DNA of 61,446 bases from Scytonema tolypothrichoides VB-61278 (GTDB lineage: Bacteria; Cyanobacteriota; Cyanobacteriia; Cyanobacteriales; Nostocaceae), in the NCBI RefSeq assembly GCF_000828085.3, contig NZ_JXCA02000001.1, positions 1,069,641 to 1,131,086 of the forward strand, given 5' to 3'. The translations under genes were made by a program, and so were the position numbers. How positions within the stretch are numbered: the stretch's first letter is position 1; each line of letters begins with the position of its first letter. The notes below the pieces were generated by a model that did not search any database, was not told the origin of the DNA, and worked only from the letters and a program-made list of their open reading frames with translations. This document shows, piece by piece, positions 7,147-49,315 of this stretch.

Positions 7147-7446
7147 ATGGTAAACCAAATTGTAGACATTGTAGATACTCTGAGTTACCCAGAGTTAGCC
7201 GGACTTCTCACGGCTTGTGGGTATGCTATTCGAGAGCAAACGAAACTTTCTAGGGCTTTGCTTGAACTCAGTTTTGAAATTTCTAAACTGCATGATAAAA
7301 AAGGCTTTTTTAGTTCTGAATATCAGGATGTGGTGAACGATATAGACTTAGCACTTTTAGCCGGTTTGTGTGCTGTAAAATTGACTCAGATGGCTACAGT
7401 CATTGAGGAAATAAATCGAAGATATCATGAAGTTTTTGTAGATTAA
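7147..7446 (+). CDS. small hypothetical protein
   Basis: 99 aa, acidic, predicted all-alpha (TLSYPELAGLLTACGYAIRE, then SRALLELSFEISKLHDKK). No signal or membrane segment and no recognised domain. The start is the first ATG after a stop. It is isolated between two long non-coding stretches. Confidence 0.5.
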   Translation: MVNQIVDIVDTLSYPELAGLLTACGYAIREQTKLSRALLELSFEISKLHDKKGFFSSEYQDVVNDIDLALLAGLCAVKLTQMATVIEEINRRYHEVFVD

Positions 7447-7775
7447 TAAGGATGAAAATTCGTATCAAATTCAGTCAAAAACTCAGGTATGGAAAAGCTA
7501 ACATTTTGTCATCAAAACAAATCTACTAATTGATGCCAAGCTTCTAGAAACTTATCAAACCGAAATGATAAAATCAGTGAACAGCTACCGTAGCTATTCA
7601 CTGATTGAAAACGCTATCCAAGATGGTCTAATTTATCAATAAACGGCATAGTAGAGGATATTTGAAATTTTGAATTGCTTAGCACTATCCTACTGAGCTC
7701 AAAGATACAGAAGAAGCTCACCCGTAGCGACTTGTAAAAACGAAAGCTTGATCACCCAACACGACTAAAAAGATA

Positions 7776-7846
7776 ACAAAAAGCACTCAGGAGTGTTACC
7801 GTGTTTCCACCCTAAGCGCTTTCTGTTTTACACTTGCTCCTCACAC
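7776..7846 (-). ncRNA. putative small RNA, copy B of a tandem pair
   Basis: On the minus strand the element begins GTGTGAGGAGC and ends in a terminator hairpin: a 12-bp stem AAAGCGCTTAGG / CCTGAGTGCTTT containing two G-U wobbles, a single bulged base, a 3-bp GTG/CAC stem, a loop GAAACACGGTAA and a T5 tail. On the plus strand the two wobbles would be mismatches and the T run is broken (TTTCTG), so the minus strand is the likely transcript. It shares architecture with copy A 160 bases away. No sRNA family name can be assigned from sequence alone. Confidence 0.6.
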
Positions 7847-7891
7847 ACTTCTAAAAAATAACATTCACTTTATCAAAGAGCAAGTAACCTA

Positions 7892-8060
7892 GGTGACACT
7901 TTCAAAACTGAACCTTCTGTGTTCCGTTCAGCAAAGCAAAAAGCGCTTGAACGTCTGGCCGTGTTTCGACTTCAAGCGCTTTTTGTTTTCAACTTACTCC
8001 TCACACTACATAAACAATATCACGAGTTAAATGAGATCACAAATCTAATGGGTGACACTT
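7892..8060. repeat. 159-160 bp tandem duplication unit boundary markers
   Basis: GGTGACACTT occurs at 7892-7901 and again at 8051-8060, the same spacing as the two small-RNA copies. The flanking sequence therefore also belongs to a tandem duplication that has since diverged in its AT-rich part. Confidence 0.55.
7936..8006 (-). ncRNA. putative small RNA, copy A of a tandem pair
   Basis: On the minus strand the element begins GTGTGAGGAGT and ends in a terminator: stem AAAAAGCGCTTGAA / TTCAAGCGCTTTTT, one bulged base, a 3-bp GTC/GAC stem and the loop GAAACACGGCCA, then T5. Compared with copy B the inner pair C-G has become G-C (compensatory), and bulge position and loop start are conserved. A TATTGT -10-like box at 8014-8019 would place the RNA start near 8006. 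It is downstream of the purH hairpin and so is probably transcribed on its own. Confidence 0.65.
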
Positions 8061-8082
8061 CAGCAACTGCTCTACTGTCTTA

Positions 8083-8113
8083 AGACATAGAATCTGAATT
8101 TTTTTCTATGTCT
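8083..8113 (-). terminator. hairpin behind purH
   Basis: AGACATAGAA and TTCTATGTCT form a 10-bp stem with an 11-base A/T-rich loop 45 bases after the purH stop. There is no clear T tract on the minus strand, so termination strength is uncertain. Confidence 0.4.
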
Positions 8114-8157
8114 CTTGGGTTACTTTTCAGTTGACATCCCTCTTAGGGAAGAGATTT

Positions 8158-9741
8158 TTAATGTAGGAAGTGACGGATACCCGTGAACACCATGACTAAA
8201 CCCAGTTCATTAGCAGCGAGTATGGAATCTTGATCTCGCAAACTTCCCCCTGGTTGCACAATAGCCTTAATTCCGGCTGCGGCTGCTGTTTTGACTGAAT
8301 CATCAAACGGGAAGAATCCATCGCTGGCGAGAATTGCTCCTTTGGCTTTTTCTCCAGCTTGTTCTAAAGCAATTTTAACTGAACCAACACGGTTCATTTG
8401 ACCTGCACCCACACCTAAAGTTGTGCGATTGCGCAAAGCGCAGACGCCTAAAGGCGTATCGCCACTCACAACAATCGCATTAGACTTAACATGCTTGCAA
8501 ACTTTCCAAGCAAACAGCAATTCTTCTAACTCATCATCACTTGGTTTCTTTTCGGTGACGATTTGCCATGTACTAGTGTTGGCTACCGCGTCATCTGAAG
8601 CTTGCAGGAGAAAACCACCTGCAATGACTTTTACGGTTTCTTTCGGTCCACTCTTCAAGTCTGGTAAAATTAATACTCGCACTTTTGATTTAGCAGCCAA
8701 AATATCTTGTGCTTCCGCATTACAACTTGGTGCAACCACACATTCTAAAAACGTTTTTGTTAACTCAGTAGCAGTTCCAGCGTCAATTGGACGGTTTAGG
8801 GCAACAATTCCACCAAAAGCAGAAACAGAGTCAGCGTTGAATGCTTTTTGGTAAGCTTCTTGGATACTATGTCCTAAAGCGACACCACAGGGATTGGTAT
8901 GTTTGATAATTGTTGCTGCGGGTGTATCGGTGAATTCAGAAATGATGCGTCGTGCGGCTTCTAAATCAACCAAGTTATTGTAACTGAGTTCTTTGCCTTG
9001 AAGTTTAGTAGCAGCTGCCCATCCAGTTGAAGTTGTACCAGTTTCATACCAGGCTGCACTTTGATGAGGATTTTCGCCGTAACGGAGAGATTGTAGTTGT
9101 TTGCCCGCAAGGGTGTACTGTTGAGGTGATTCTGCCTCTTTGCTTACACAGGAGAGGTTACTACTCAGGTATGCGGCGATCGCCTGATCATAGCTAGACG
9201 TATGCAAAAATCCCTTTAACGCACACTTTTGTCGAAACTCTAGAGATGGTTCACCATTTGAGCGGTGCATTTCCTGTAAATATTCCTTATACTGCGCTGG
9301 TTCGCATAAAATTGTGAGATGAGCAAAGTTTTTTGAGGCTGCTCTGAGCATAGCAGGACCACCGATATCAATTTGCTCGATCGCCTCAGGTAAAGTCACA
9401 CCTTGTTTTGCGATCGTCTGTTCAAAAGGATAAAGATTCACCACAACCAAATCAATCGGGCGAATTTGGTTATGTTCCAAATCTGCTATGTCTTCGGGTA
9501 CATCTCGCCGTGCTAAAATCCCGCCATGTATCCGAGGATGTAGAGTTTTCACTCGACCACCTAGGATTTCTGGAGAACCTGTGTAATCAGCAACTTTTGT
9601 GACTGGTAGTCCTGCATCTTTCAGTGCTTTGGCTGTTCCGCCACTGCTGATAAATTCAAAGTCAAATTCTTCTACTAAGCTACGGGCAAGGTCAATTAAT
9701 CCGGTTTTATTCGATACACTCAGCAGTGCTAGACGCGCCAT
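8158..9741 (-). CDS. purH: bifunctional AICAR formyltransferase / IMP cyclohydrolase
   Basis: 527 aa from the ATG at 9741 (MARLALLSVSNKTGL), the usual PurH N-terminus; an in-frame ATG at 9804 would add 21 residues with no family match. The enzyme catalyses the last two steps of IMP synthesis. Residues 1-~190 are the MGS-like cyclohydrolase domain (FEFISSGGTAKAL, GGRVKTLHPRIHGG). The rest is the AICAR transformylase domain with SLRYGENPHQSAAWY, the catalytic KHTNPCG and a C-terminal QPGGSLRD. It is monocistronic. Confidence 0.95.
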   Translation of the reverse strand: MARLALLSVSNKTGLIDLARSLVEEFDFEFISSGGTAKALKDAGLPVTKVADYTGSPEILGGRVKTLHPRIHGGILARRDVPEDIADLEHNQIRPIDLVVVNLYPFEQTIAKQGVTLPEAIEQIDIGGPAMLRAASKNFAHLTILCEPAQYKEYLQEMHRSNGEPSLEFRQKCALKGFLHTSSYDQAIAAYLSSNLSCVSKEAESPQQYTLAGKQLQSLRYGENPHQSAAWYETGTTSTGWAAATKLQGKELSYNNLVDLEAARRIISEFTDTPAATIIKHTNPCGVALGHSIQEAYQKAFNADSVSAFGGIVALNRPIDAGTATELTKTFLECVVAPSCNAEAQDILAAKSKVRVLILPDLKSGPKETVKVIAGGFLLQASDDAVANTSTWQIVTEKKPSDDELEELLFAWKVCKHVKSNAIVVSGDTPLGVCALRNRTTLGVGAGQMNRVGSVKIALEQAGEKAKGAILASDGFFPFDDSVKTAAAAGIKAIVQPGGSLRDQDSILAANELGLVMVFTGIRHFLH

Positions 9742-9865
9742 ATTTCCTGGGTTTCCTTTGGTGTAAATACAGTTAGTGCAGATGCTTATTATATAAACCG
9801 CCAACGAGTGAACAAAACACTTCTACTAGAACAGGTGTTTGGAGCGGCTGAAGACGAACCATCAC

Positions 9866-34692: not shown

Positions 34693-36186
34693 ATGAAGAT
34701 TTTATTAGAGAAACAATCGTCTAAACCTATATATTTGCAGATACGCGATCGCATCAGTCGTCTCATTAAATCTGGCGCACTGCAAAGTGGCGATCGCCTA
34801 CCCTCAATCCGCTGTTTGGCACAAAGTTTGCAAGTTAACAAACTCACAATCATTGAAGCTTATAACGTTCTAGAAGCCGATGGTGTTGTGTGTGCGCGTC
34901 AAGGAGCAGGATATTTTGTCAGTAGCGTTTCTGTTCCTTCTGCCAATTTGAAATCAACATTTGCCCCTGCACAAAATGTCATAATTCCAGAGCAAGGAGG
35001 AAGTTGTTTTTTTGATATGTACACGACTGGGGTGCACGCACAATCTCAGCCAGGAATTATTAACTTTAGTCTTGGTTTTCCTCATCCACCAAAAGATATA
35101 GATTTAATTGCTAGACGAGCACTTAGACAAACTCCAGATAGCTTATTTCAATACGATTTGCCTCAAGGACAACTGACTCTGCGCAGGCAAATTGCTCAGA
35201 TGTTGATTCAACAGGGAATGGAGATATCGGCAGATAATTTGATTATTACCAATGGCTCAGAACAAGGGCTATCATTGGCATTGCAACATCACATACAACC
35301 AGGGGACTGGGTGATTGTTGAGAGTCCTACATATTTTGGGGCGATCGCCATCCTGGAAAAATTAAAAGCCAAAATTATAGGTATTCCCATGACTGCGGAG
35401 GGGATGAATTTAGAGTTATTAGAGCAGTATCTCAAAAGTCATCGCCCAAAATTAATTTATACCATCAGTACCTTACAGAATCCTACAGGGATAACGACAA
35501 CTCAAGCACATCGCCAAGAATTACTCTCTTTAGCAGAAAAATACGAGTGTCCGATTTTAGAAGATAATGCTTATGAAGGACTATGTTTTGAAACGGTACC
35601 ACCACCAATTAAAGCTTTCGACAAACAAGATTTGGTGACTTATATAAACACTTTTTCTAAAACTTTGATGCCTGGTTTACGAGTCGGTTATATGGTAGTG
35701 ACAGGCAAATATTATCAAGAAATTCTTGAGCAAAAATTGCTCCATGATTTTCATACATCCACGATTTCCCAAGCAATAGTCAGCGAGTACTTAGCATCAG
35801 GACATCTCCGCCGTCACCTCAAGCAAATGCGTGCAGAACTTCTTCAAAGCCGTAATCTTATGCTTCAAGCCTTGGAGTGTTACTTTCCCGAAGAAGCACG
35901 GTGGACTGTTCCCAATGGTGGATTATTTCTTTGGGTGCAATTACCTGAGAATATTCCTACTAAGACAATTCGCATCGAAGCCTTATCTCAAAATGTCTTA
36001 GTTGCTTGTGGTTCAGGGTTTTTCCCAGACAAGAAAGGTTATCCAGCTATGCGGTTGAGTTATTGTCTCACACCGGAGGAGATTGAAAAAGGTATTTCTA
36101 GATTGGGTAAATTGTTGAAAAAACATCTTTACAAAGGGTGTGAAAGGATATCTAATAAGCATCAAAGACTTGTTCACAGCATTTAG
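34693..36186 (+). CDS. MocR-type regulator: GntR DNA-binding domain fused to a class I aminotransferase
   Basis: 497 aa from ATG 34693 (MKILLEKQSSKPIYLQIRDR). The frame is open to 34555, but that part contains the two palindromic operator sites and has no family match. Residues 1-~75 are a winged helix (SGDRLPSIRCLAQSLQVNKL). Residues ~125-480 are an aminotransferase fold with ITNGSEQGLSLA, the NPTG motif (TLQNPTGITT), ILEDNAYEG and the PLP lysine in TFSKTLMPGLRVGY. MocR proteins sense PLP or amino compounds and usually control a neighbouring gene; here autoregulation is likely. Confidence 0.88.
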   Translation: MKILLEKQSSKPIYLQIRDRISRLIKSGALQSGDRLPSIRCLAQSLQVNKLTIIEAYNVLEADGVVCARQGAGYFVSSVSVPSANLKSTFAPAQNVIIPEQGGSCFFDMYTTGVHAQSQPGIINFSLGFPHPPKDIDLIARRALRQTPDSLFQYDLPQGQLTLRRQIAQMLIQQGMEISADNLIITNGSEQGLSLALQHHIQPGDWVIVESPTYFGAIAILEKLKAKIIGIPMTAEGMNLELLEQYLKSHRPKLIYTISTLQNPTGITTTQAHRQELLSLAEKYECPILEDNAYEGLCFETVPPPIKAFDKQDLVTYINTFSKTLMPGLRVGYMVVTGKYYQEILEQKLLHDFHTSTISQAIVSEYLASGHLRRHLKQMRAELLQSRNLMLQALECYFPEEARWTVPNGGLFLWVQLPENIPTKTIRIEALSQNVLVACGSGFFPDKKGYPAMRLSYCLTPEEIEKGISRLGKLLKKHLYKGCERISNKHQRLVHSI

Positions 36187-46059: not shown

Positions 46060-46764
46060 TCAAAATTGACTCTTACTCGGTACCAGAATCATCGAAAAGT
46101 AAGGCACTTGGGCTGGATCTACATCATCTAAGGAGATGATTCGCTGGTTTGCCATCGTTCCTCGTTCAATGTAACGCGCCCGTGACAACAGCCCTAATTT
46201 ATGTAACACTTCACGAACTTTTGTTAAATGCCGTCGCAGCTTGATAATAACAGCAGCATCGGCATTTAACAATTGTGCTTCTAAAACTTCGGCTGGTAAA
46301 GGGGCTGGTAGAACGCTGAAAACATCGTTACGATAACTTAAGGGAACTCCCAATGCTGAAGCACACCCCATTGGTGAAGAAACCCCCGGCACGACTTCTG
46401 CTTCAAATTGCTCTGACAAACGTGTAAAAATATACATAAAAGAGCCGTAAAATAACGGATCTCCCTCGCACAGTACCACCACATCCCGTCCACCGGCAAG
46501 ATGTTCTGCAATAGGGATGACAACCTGATCGTAAATCGGTAGTGCTGCATATGGATCAAGAGCGCGGGGGAGATGATACTGTACCTCGATTTGATTGCCA
46601 GGGAGGTATTGAGCTACGATACCTCTAGCAATACTCTCCTTATCTTCTGCAGATTGATAGGCGACTACTGGGCAAGAACGTAATAGCCGCAGTGCTTTTA
46701 GTGTCAGAAGTTCTGGATCCCCAGGACCTACTCCAACTCCGTAAAGACGACCTTTGTTCATCAT
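46060..46764 (-). CDS. cobI: precorrin-2 C20-methyltransferase
   Basis: 234 aa, a SAM-dependent tetrapyrrole methylase that adds the C-20 methyl group to precorrin-2 on the way to cobalamin. The glycine-rich start LYGVGVGPGDPELLTLKALR, the VVLCEGDPLFYGSFMY loop and the VVPGVSSPMGCASALGVPLS block are the class motifs; the DPLFYGS form fits CobI/CbiL. Its first codons overlap the end of cobH by four bases, so cobH-cobI are coupled. Confidence 0.92.
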   Translation of the reverse strand: MMNKGRLYGVGVGPGDPELLTLKALRLLRSCPVVAYQSAEDKESIARGIVAQYLPGNQIEVQYHLPRALDPYAALPIYDQVVIPIAEHLAGGRDVVVLCEGDPLFYGSFMYIFTRLSEQFEAEVVPGVSSPMGCASALGVPLSYRNDVFSVLPAPLPAEVLEAQLLNADAAVIIKLRRHLTKVREVLHKLGLLSRARYIERGTMANQRIISLDDVDPAQVPYFSMILVPSKSQF

Positions 46765-47390
46765 TCTTCCTCCGTTGCTAAGGCGTTAACTGCGGCGGCG
46801 GCGATCGCACTCCCACCCCGCCGACCATGTAATGTCATAAATGGCACACCAAAACTATCTGCAGCCAGTGCGGCTTTCGATTCTGCCGCCCCTACAAACC
46901 CAACCGGAAAACCCAGAATTAGTGCTGGTTTAGGTGCCCCGGCGTACAGCATTTCTAGTAACCGGAACAAAACGGTAGGTGCATTGCCAACTGCTACCAC
47001 TGCCCCTTCTAACACTGGTAACCACAATTCCAAAGCAGCAGCAGAACGCGTGGTTTCCAGTTTTTGAGCAAGTTCTGGCACATCCGGATGATTGAGGGTA
47101 CAAATCACTGAATTGTCTGCTGGTAGTCGTCGCCGCGTAATACCTTCTGCCACCATTCGACAATCACACAAAATCGGTGCCCCTGCTGCTAAAGACTGTC
47201 GCCCAGATTCCACAGCTGTTGGTGAAGCTGCTAAATCATAAACAATATCTGTCATCCCACAAGCATGAATGAGACGCACGGCTACATTTGCGACATCCGG
47301 GGCAAGTACAGACAGATTTGCCTCAGAACGAATAATGGCAAAGGATTTGCTATATATTTCGTTACCGTTTTTTATATAGTTAATAGTCAT
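46761..47390 (-). CDS. cobH: precorrin-8X methylmutase
   Basis: 209 aa, converts precorrin-8X to hydrogenobyrinate by moving a methyl group from C-11 to C-12. The catalytic His is H42 in RLIHACGMTD. Other family blocks: APILCDCRMVAEGITRRRLP, AVVAVGNAPTVLFRLLEML and LILGFPVGFVGAAESKAALA. It overlaps cobI by four bases. A 163-base gap containing a GC-rich repeat separates it from cobG upstream. Confidence 0.93.
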   Translation of the reverse strand: MTINYIKNGNEIYSKSFAIIRSEANLSVLAPDVANVAVRLIHACGMTDIVYDLAASPTAVESGRQSLAAGAPILCDCRMVAEGITRRRLPADNSVICTLNHPDVPELAQKLETTRSAAALELWLPVLEGAVVAVGNAPTVLFRLLEMLYAGAPKPALILGFPVGFVGAAESKAALAADSFGVPFMTLHGRRGGSAIAAAAVNALATEEE

Positions 47391-47553: not shown

Positions 47554-49095
47554 TTAGTTGTTTGTTTGTTTACTAACGACTAACCACTCTCTTTTCTCAA
47601 ACAACCGTTGCAAGTCTGCAATAATATACTGGTTGACAAATTCCCGAAATGATTGATTGGGAGTATTACGTTCTGCCATATATATTTGCAGCATCCGTTC
47701 TACCACTTGAGGTAATTGTGCAAAAGTTACCCAGCTGTAAATTTCTCGTCCAAATTTTTCGTTACTATCACCGTCACCTACATAGACTTTATAGCCTTCC
47801 ACTACTTCCCCTTTATTTTCAATATTGAGACCAACAAGGGTAATATCGCTCTTGCTATGCTGTGCACAGGATTTTTCGCAACCTGTAAAGTGAATGTTGA
47901 TTGGTTGGTCGAGAATCAGGCGACTGTCCAAATATTCCGCTAATGCTAGGGCGTGACTTTTGGTATCTGTCGCTGAAGACCCACATCCTGTATTGCCAGC
48001 GCAAGCAACTAAAGCACTGTGAATGTGAGTTGCAGACCAATGCAATCCTAAGTTTTCGATTTTACTTTGTATATTGGGAATCCACTGTTGAGGAATATCT
48101 GATATCAAGAGATTTTGCCAAGGTGTCAACCTCAGTTTACCACTAGCGTAGGTTTCAGCAATATCCGCTAAACCACGCATTTGCCCAGTGTCTAACCTAC
48201 CAACGGGTACCACAACACCAATGTAGGATAATCCTTTGTGTCGTTGGGGATGGACACCTATGTGCTTATATCGAGTTGGGTTCAGTTGTCGTGAGTCAGA
48301 AGGCGACAAGGAGAATTCCCCTTGTGTGTTTGTCTGTTTCTCCTGGAGAACCCGCCGCAGTGGATAGGAAAGATGAGATTCAACTTCTTGGAGAAATTTT
48401 TCTATACCTAAGTTGTTCAAAATTTCCCAAAGACGCGGCTGACGCGATTTGCGATGAGGAATAGTGTTCTGAGTCTTTACTGTTAAATGCTGCAAATAGA
48501 CTTTTGCTAATGCAGCGACAACCTCAATACACTCCTCTGGTTTCAACACAATATCTGTATCAATAAATGATTCAAACAGTGATGTACCCAAATTCAGCTT
48601 GAGGCGGAAGTAAACGTTCTTATCAACCATAACTGCACTCAAGACGATATCATTGGTGCGATCGCCTATTGACACAGAACCACCGCCATCAAAAGCAACG
48701 CTAAATTTTGGTGAAAGTGGTGCTAACTCGGTGTGATTAGTAATGTAATTATCTAATTCACAAATCAGCGGTTGAGTGTCGATAAGTTCGTATAAGTCGA
48801 TCCCAGCCGTGGGACTACCCATGATATTACGCAAATGGTCAACCTCTGGAATAGCTGAAGCTACACCAATCTTCTGTAGAACTCTTAAAACCTCACCGGG
48901 AATCTCTGTACGAATTGCACGGATTTGAAGATTGGCACGATTGGTAATATTCGTGTAACCTTCTCCAAACTCGTCAGCTAAGTCAGCAATGACACGAAAC
49001 TGCTGACTCGTCAATATTCCTCCAGGTATGCGGATGCGAGATAATGTACCGTCTCGCGCGGATGTTTGATAAAAAAGACCAGGACAACCAGACAC
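47554..49095 (-). CDS. cobG: precorrin-3B synthase (oxygen-dependent)
   Basis: 513 aa from the GTG at 49095, which follows GGGGAAGGAG at the right distance. A frame is open to GTG 49155, but that codon touches the end of the riboswitch aptamer with no ribosome site. It has the sulfite/nitrite reductase-like fold with [4Fe-4S]-siroheme cysteines: CAGNTGC and GCEKSC near the C-terminus, plus the early ITNRANLQIRAI block. It oxidises precorrin-3A with O2 to precorrin-3B, marking the aerobic cobalamin route. First gene of cobG-cobH-cobI. Confidence 0.9.
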   Translation of the reverse strand: MSGCPGLFYQTSARDGTLSRIRIPGGILTSQQFRVIADLADEFGEGYTNITNRANLQIRAIRTEIPGEVLRVLQKIGVASAIPEVDHLRNIMGSPTAGIDLYELIDTQPLICELDNYITNHTELAPLSPKFSVAFDGGGSVSIGDRTNDIVLSAVMVDKNVYFRLKLNLGTSLFESFIDTDIVLKPEECIEVVAALAKVYLQHLTVKTQNTIPHRKSRQPRLWEILNNLGIEKFLQEVESHLSYPLRRVLQEKQTNTQGEFSLSPSDSRQLNPTRYKHIGVHPQRHKGLSYIGVVVPVGRLDTGQMRGLADIAETYASGKLRLTPWQNLLISDIPQQWIPNIQSKIENLGLHWSATHIHSALVACAGNTGCGSSATDTKSHALALAEYLDSRLILDQPINIHFTGCEKSCAQHSKSDITLVGLNIENKGEVVEGYKVYVGDGDSNEKFGREIYSWVTFAQLPQVVERMLQIYMAERNTPNQSFREFVNQYIIADLQRLFEKREWLVVSKQTNN

Positions 49096-49155
49096 GCTTA
49101 CAACTCCTTCCCCGTGCGACGCGGAGAGCAGATAATCATTGTGTCTACAAGACAC

Positions 49156-49250
49156 CTTTGGAGCCGGTATTCTGACTAGGGTTTACCCATTACAGCTGCG
49201 GCACAGTCCCGGAATCTCACCGGAATTTCCCGACTCTAAGTTTGTGTAGT
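49156..49250 (-). promoter_or_regulatory. cobalamin riboswitch upstream of cobG
   Basis: On the minus strand the class signature is readable in order: GGGAAATTCCGGTGAGATTCC, ACTGTGCCGCAGCTGTAAT, then the B12-box-like AGTCAGAATACCGGCTCC (49160-49177). Downstream, GTGTC-TTGTA-GACAC forms a hairpin, and CTCTCC can pair with the GGGGAAGGAG ribosome site of cobG. This suggests adenosyl- or other cobalamin represses translation of cobG. Confidence 0.9.
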
Positions 49251-49315
49251 TTAGCATGAGATAATACCCTTACATCTTTTTGCCAAATCTTCTTAATTCT
49301 TCCATCAATCATTAG

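Follow-up and report, generated by a model that had tools for sequence, protein, structure and literature searches.

The Cyano-1 motif (RF01701) is the motif of the Yfr2 family of small RNAs (sRNAs; PMC8400943), which are described as having a 12-nt loop on a long stem and a bulge at position -4 (PMC2662882); what is attributed here to papers cited by PMC number refers to excerpts of these papers. In Nostoc sp. PCC 7120, the nearest studied case, Yfr2 rises under nitrogen deprivation and binds Yfr1 in vitro, as seen by gel shift (PMC6974561). Prochlorococcus Yfr2 cancels the repression by Yfr1 in an E. coli reporter system, recovered 404 peaks in a pull-down, which were assigned to 302 mRNAs, and is shielded by Yfr1 from RNase E in vitro (PMC6778093). 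The excerpts of the same paper call the yfr2 loci unconserved; they also state that the yfr2 promoters in Prochlorococcus are bound by PMM1637, a regulator of the GntR type that cyanobacteria have in common, and that CGRE1, a marine picocyanobacterial motif, is found in the MED4 genome only at yfr2 genes (PMC6778093). The PMM1637-type protein is called PlmA in reviews (PMC6243067, PMC7344720). Another short sRNA of heterocystous cyanobacteria, NsiR1, is encoded in a tandem array upstream of hetF (PMC3610870).

Here we describe a pair of minus-strand elements in a window of Scytonema tolypothrichoides VB-61278 (the host), the window being the whole stretch of 61,446 nucleotides (61 kb) that was analyzed. 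The comparisons below make it very probable that the pair represents two tandem yfr2 genes behind purH, which would most likely relieve Yfr1 repression by pairing of their tails; we infer that the pair is transcribed and acts as a decoy in the host organism. The pair is a known RNA of low novelty, to which a promoter element and a second target of this element add somewhat. The features are listed in Table 1.

Table 1. Features of the yfr2 locus and associated loci. Coordinates are those of the window unless a separate locus is named.
Feature	Coordinates	Strand	Evidence
yfr2 copy A (purH-proximal), Yfr2/Cyano-1 sRNA gene	7935..8010	-	RF01701 45.2 bits; R1 87.3 bits (not independent, as the copy is among the sequences from which R1 was built); fold -25.0 kcal/mol
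yfr2 copy B (distal), Yfr2/Cyano-1 sRNA gene	7775..7850	-	RF01701 52.6 bits; R1 88.2 bits (not independent, for the same reason); fold -27.6 kcal/mol
Copy A 5' tail GTGTGAGGAGT	7996..8006	-	11-nt perfect Watson-Crick complement of the unpaired Yfr1 motif
Copy B 5' tail GTGTGAGGAG	7837..7846	-	10-nt perfect complement of the Yfr1 motif
Copy A bulged hairpin with U-run end (terminator-like)	7937..7985	-	Fold; loop start GAAACACGG at 7959-7967
Copy B bulged hairpin with U-run end (terminator-like)	7777..7825	-	Fold; loop start GAAACACGG at 7799-7807
Copy A upstream element CAGTTGCTGAAGTGTCAC, candidate PlmA (GntR) operator	8052..8069	-	Motif search
Copy B upstream element CAGTTTTGAAAGTGTCAC, candidate PlmA (GntR) operator	7893..7910	-	Motif search
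purH (AICAR transformylase/IMP cyclohydrolase), in front of the yfr2 pair	8158..9744	-	ORF; Pfam PF01808 and PF02142
Third, solitary yfr2 copy	L003 1501-1568 (host C2)	-	No upstream element
Second RNA, about 165 nt	L219 1283-1460 (host C10, near 117971)	-	Same upstream element as the yfr2 copies

Identity and structure of the yfr2 pair

Both copies exceed the gathering score of RF01701 (41 bits, Rfam 15) and, as judged by this match, are Yfr2/Cyano-1, an already known RNA and not a new RNA type. The novelty implied in an earlier, sequence-only reading of the region therefore falls, and a new RNA class was ruled out by the same match. The host copies have in common with the described family the Yfr1-complementary tail, the bulged hairpin, the 12-nt loop, the presence of multiple copies, and Yfr1 in the genome. 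The loop, three pairs and 1-nt bulge on the 3' side, present in both copies, fit the wording of PMC2662882 in loop size and bulge position. The host genome carries three copies, compared with four Yfr2 repeats in Nostoc sp. PCC 7120 (PMC6974561); the third copy is solitary, lies on another contig and scores below the gathering threshold (36.7 bits). In contrast to the NsiR1 array, which it resembles in being a tandem array of short sRNAs in heterocystous cyanobacteria (PMC3610870), the host pair matches Cyano-1 and follows purH, the two being set apart by description, not by sequence.

RF01701 was found in all 147 genomes sampled from the host's family, the host included, and was above cut-off in 146 of them. 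In a sample of the phylum it was found in 139 of 291 genomes (122 above cut-off), all 139 belonging to the window's class; among the negative genomes that were listed, two came from this class and 18 from outside it, and 132 further negatives were unlisted. A solitary 70-nt match scoring 60.8-71.7 bits was seen once in each of 29 out of 30 relatives, which represent one genome per genus of the family; these solitary copies are perhaps a second yfr2 class.

The window contains GTGTGAGGAG at exactly two places, 7837-7846 and 7997-8006, both on the minus strand and 160 bp apart, with 0.11 occurrences expected from shuffling and two occurrences in none of 100 shuffles of the window. Folding of the minus strand yields, in both copies, a long stem, a 1-nt bulge on the 3' side, a 3-bp inner stem and a 12-nt loop starting with the same nine-position segment (Table 1), with energy z scores of -2.9 for 7935-8010 and -4.3 for 7775-7850. 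These results bear out most of what the sequence-only reading had claimed: two minus-strand elements 160 bp apart with a common 5' segment, which is found at both and nowhere else in the window; the bulge, inner stem and kept loop start; and the exchange of GTC/GAC for GTG/CAC in the inner stem, which is genuine, the innermost pair being GC in 22 and CG in three of 25 homologues. The elements were also correctly located, with limits (7776-8006) slightly too narrow in comparison with those of the family model (7775-7850 and 7935-8010). The claimed strand asymmetry holds for 7775-7850, where the minus strand folds at -27.6 and the plus strand at -14.3 kcal/mol, but not for 7935-8010, where the two strands are about equal (-25.0 and -26.4 kcal/mol, respectively). 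The gene-free gap, said to be about 700 bp long, measures 711 bp, from the ORF end at 7446 to the purH stop at 8158, and is devoid of any ORF of at least 80 aa.

Several smaller features flank the pair. The 99-aa ORF at 7147-7446 on the plus strand faces it; at E 0.001 it matched no Pfam family. At 7572-7606 on the minus strand, downstream of the two yfr2 copies, a 16-pair stem with a 3-nt loop is followed by a T-rich tail and is terminator-like. A scan for the sigma-70 consensus on the minus strand of 7450-8170 found no promoter-like site. The two yfr2 hairpins, with a 12-nt loop above the limit of 8 of the terminator scan, were absent from its output.

Covariation and conservation

We aligned 25 homologues, three of them the host copies, 21 from other genomes of the family and one from another family (alignment A1). 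For the copy A hairpin, 98.9% of 449 stem cells are paired in this alignment and two-sided changes occur in 13 of 18 pairs (39 such cells). Slid versions of the structure pair 38-57% of the cells, a comparison in which the true register is favored, since the structure was taken from one A1 sequence. None of 500 shuffles reached any of five covariation measures, a count that should not be read as a probability since the A1 sequences are related. All ten positions of the tail and eight of the nine positions of the loop start are invariant. The Yfr2 hairpin structure is held by covariation. The earlier reading had proposed a functional minus-strand RNA that is neither a protein gene nor a plain purH terminator, and the match to a curated sRNA family together with the covariation in A1 upholds this; it had also suggested looking for homologues with unpreserved stems, and with nearly all stem cells paired in the 25 homologues this check brought no refutation.

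The purH neighborhood

The pair lies on the same strand as purH, and its first copy is about 150 nt behind the purH stop; the longest ORF reading of purH starts at 9804. From A1 we derived a model (R1), with which we searched 80 purH loci of named genomes; these were the best 80 of the 565 that the window's purH had found, and some have short flanks. Same-strand yfr2 genes were identified behind purH in 39 of these best 80 loci, amounting to 86 copies with one to four per locus; 29 of the 39 positive loci had two or more. The first copy was located 65-254 nt behind the purH match, the copies were spaced by 134-171 nt in 32 of 47 cases (758 nt at most), and GTGTGAGGAG was kept in 85 of the 86 copies. 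Thirty seven of the 39 loci come from genera that we take to be heterocystous, the exceptions being Trichocoleus (L108) and an uncultured cyanobacterium (L102), and four of the 41 loci without yfr2 presumably belong to Nostocales (L095, L101, L106 and L144). With 39 of 80 purH loci followed by yfr2, and nearly all of these 39 from genera taken to be heterocystous, an array of yfr2 genes behind purH can be called common in Nostocales, even though the excerpts of PMC6778093 call yfr2 loci unconserved. Our literature search found no paper dealing with both Yfr2 and purH.

The upstream element

Both array copies are preceded, 42-43 bp before the model start, by CAGTTnnnnAAGTGTCAC. The sequence CASTTNNNNAASTGTCAC occurs three times in the 7.9-Mb genome, once in front of each array copy and once at C10:117971, and its backwards control does not occur; in the 30 relatives there were 87 matches versus six for the control, three palindromic places being counted on both strands. 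Taking the host and the relatives together, 34 of 90 element matches sit 41-45 nt before same-strand yfr2 genes, of which there are 105; elements were found at 28 of 61 array members and at six of 44 solitary genes. At least five of the 30 genomes had been inspected before the element search, and there may be overlap between the remaining ones and the named genomes of the purH loci.

In the host, the element consists of an exact half-site and, facing it at a distance of 4 bp, a shortened arm (CAGTT). A search for the half-site GTGACASTT, with one mismatch allowed and 20-100 nt upstream of yfr2, was positive for 92 of the 137 distinct Nostocales genes, including both host array copies (3.2 in shuffles), for 33 of 50 genes in family f25 (1.1 in shuffles), which is taken as the marine picocyanobacteria, and for 13 of the 34 from other families (0.8 in shuffles), Nostocales and f25 being the sets where the motif was spotted. 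Two outward-facing half-sites were present in nine of 51 f25 promoters, and an inward pattern in eight of 34 promoters of other families. The upstream element and its second target, described below, may be a new extension of the known Yfr2 system.

PlmA is named for plasmid maintenance. A palindromic form of the element, considered as a possible link to this function, was seen in three relatives (L230, L243 and L250). In L250 it is located within the coding region of a gene with weak HTH-type matches, near a DNA methylase; a scan of five proteins of this contig found no partition family above cut-off and one weak ParA-HTH match below it.

Predicted pairing with Yfr1

Yfr1 of the host (62.1 bits in the Rfam search) precedes an ORF with a WCGPC motif, which, read by eye, suggests a thioredoxin-type protein. 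In this Yfr1, the segment TCACTCCTCACACCACACT is predicted to be unpaired and shows complementarity to the tail of each of the three yfr2 copies, over 11 nt in copy A, 10 nt in copy B and 10 nt in the third copy. The tails themselves are unpaired by prediction, with the qualification that the minimum-energy fold of copy B, as opposed to its centroid, pairs part of the tail in a 3-bp helix. The energy of the whole-molecule duplex with Yfr1 is unremarkable, shuffles being as good in 23 of 300 cases for copy A, 107 of 300 for copy B and 105 of 300 for the third copy; the case for pairing therefore rests on the unpaired tails. In a co-folding test of the unpaired segments, which was done after the whole-molecule test had come out non-significant, an equal gain with Yfr1 was reached by none of 200 shuffles of the 25-nt tail for each of the three copies. 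The motif ACTCCTCACAC has seven occurrences in the genome, compared to two for the reversed control; one of them is the complement of the copy A tail, and among the six other sites only Yfr1 matched Rfam.

Given this complementarity and the printed results on Prochlorococcus and Nostoc Yfr2, we read the pair as Yfr1 antagonists in two doses. Each copy probably has its own promoter and its own terminator, the stable bulged hairpin being expected to end the RNA. The unpaired 5' tail would pair with the exposed Yfr1 motif, which would relieve the repression by Yfr1 of its mRNA targets, and the presence of two copies would raise the dose of Yfr2.

An alternative is that the copies, as members of the Yfr2 family, act mainly by direct pairing with numerous mRNAs, the GAAACACGG loop being one possible site of contact, and that binding by Yfr1 mostly serves to control Yfr2 and not the other way round. 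The number of mRNAs pulled down by Prochlorococcus Yfr2 implies that decoy action may not be the main role of Yfr2; the shielding from RNase E by Yfr1 (PMC6778093) points the same way, as does the loop start, nearly as conserved in A1 as the tail. We nevertheless consider this alternative unlikely, as Yfr2 restored the expression of a Yfr1-repressed reporter (PMC6778093) and the tail is kept in all but one of the copies behind purH. It is highly improbable that one copy is a decaying duplicate without function: copies A and B agree at only 54 of 76 positions in a gap-free comparison, but their differences leave the stem paired, the tail is intact in both, and both have the upstream element at nearly equal distance. 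Least credible of all are mere tandem terminators of purH or of its read-through, a reading suggested by the strand, the closeness to the purH stop and the U-run ends of the hairpins, since a terminator needs neither a conserved 5' tail nor a 12-nt loop nor an upstream element, RF01701 is a curated sRNA family, and a plain purH terminator is ruled out by the third host copy on another contig (L003), the solitary copies of relatives, the kept tails, and the conservation and covariation in A1.

A second RNA with the same upstream element

Fifty six element matches did not belong to previously listed yfr2 genes; 44 of them were examined, in 41 loci (40 and L219). A conserved segment of about 165 nt, starting with GTGCAAGGAGTGATACC and having a terminator-like hairpin at its end, was present in 24 of the 41 loci (the host and 23 relatives). 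Among the other 17 loci, L244 is a yfr2 gene cut by the contig end and 16 are mixed. This second RNA was thus seen, through the element, in 23 of the 30 relatives searched first. A model of it (R2), built from loci that had been chosen through the upstream element, identified it at E 0.01 in 23 of another 25 genera of the family; of five genomes outside the family, one was matched (weakly, with 47 bits).

The loci identified by R2 provide the cleanest test of the association between the element and the second RNA, as they were found without the half-site. This set comprised 24 loci with 52-130 bits from 23 family genomes, one assembly repeat being counted twice and weaker extra matches being left out. 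The half-site preceded 23 of the 24 loci and was exact in 22, in all of which it started 48-51 nt upstream; shuffles gave 0.6.

The second RNA is apparently an uncharacterized conserved RNA. Four loci tested, including L219, had no meaningful Rfam match up to E 5, and a search of papers with three short strings of the RNA found none; predicted Nostoc sRNAs are listed by coordinate in PMC4734099. Three candidates were considered. 6S RNA was ruled out, the single RF00013 match of the genome being at C1:589075-589258. A small protein was rejected as well: the frame that opens at a conserved ATG-like position varies in length from 5 to 49 aa among 24 sequences, three of which carry CTG, GTG or ACG there; since both frame length and start codon vary, we treat the segment as RNA. 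NsrR1, with a printed size of about 110 nt in the excerpt of PMC6166021, was judged unlikely, being set apart by size, not by sequence.

RNAalifold predicted 38 pairs for the second RNA, eight of them with two-sided changes, and the covariation term was small (-1.8 of -28.6 kcal/mol). At the 5' end, 8 nt are complementary to the Yfr1 segment, a match reached in none of 5000 shuffles; its AAGGAG also resembles a ribosome-binding site. The whole-molecule duplex with Yfr1 was not special, 32 of 300 shuffles being as good.

A possible link to PlmA

A PlmA-type GntR gene gave one match in each of the 30 genomes examined; the match in the host has 47% identity to the gene of genome G231 over its residues 2-326. 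The host thus has in common with the PMM1637/PlmA-CGRE1 system a PlmA-type GntR gene and the half-site GTGACASTT before yfr2. It differs in that the CGRE1 system is marine picocyanobacterial, whereas the host element has a shortened arm, the two being likened by description, not letter by letter. The CGRE1 motif was reportedly presented by Lambrecht in 2018.

In f25, the half-site was found at most 200 nt before plmA in 16 of 18 genomes (1.0 in shuffles), two of which had been inspected beforehand. Before plmA it was seen in one of eight genomes of other families and in none of three Nostocaceae, including the host, one truncated locus being skipped; a half-site before the plmA gene itself is not known to be required for membership in the regulon. 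One half-site marks plmA and yfr2 in f25 and likewise yfr2 in Nostocales, which supports PlmA control here. Speaking against it are the lack of the site before plmA in Nostocales and the restriction of CGRE1 in MED4 to yfr2 genes (excerpts of PMC6778093), so that the site before plmA of f25 either falls short of CGRE1 in strength or is something other than CGRE1. From these patterns we infer that PlmA may control both yfr2 copies through the upstream element.

A broader proposal, put forward tentatively and with slightly more doubt than belief, is that in heterocystous cyanobacteria PlmA, a regulator specific to cyanobacteria, has a very small regulon of RNAs under its direct control via elements built on the half-site GTGACA(C/G)TT, comprising yfr2 behind purH and the second RNA of about 165 nt with its Yfr1 complementarity, and so feeds carbon/nitrogen status into the Yfr1 network. 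PlmA is reported to bind the PII-PipX complex. Bound in this way, PlmA could pass carbon/nitrogen status to the Yfr1 network through two RNA antagonists; if true, this would link PII-PipX signaling to the cell-wall network of Yfr1. The presence of the element at just three sites in the 7.9-Mb genome provides a short and testable list of candidate PlmA targets outside the marine picocyanobacteria.

Other features of the window

The host genome has five GntR-domain matches, one of them in the window at 34732-34920 on the plus strand, within a long frame that by eye resembles a MocR-type regulator. A cobalamin riboswitch (RF00174, 44 bits) is located at 49145-49253 on the minus strand of the window and precedes the minus-strand ORFs 47554-49155, 46761-47390 and 46060-46764, which by eye appear to be cobalamin-synthesis genes.
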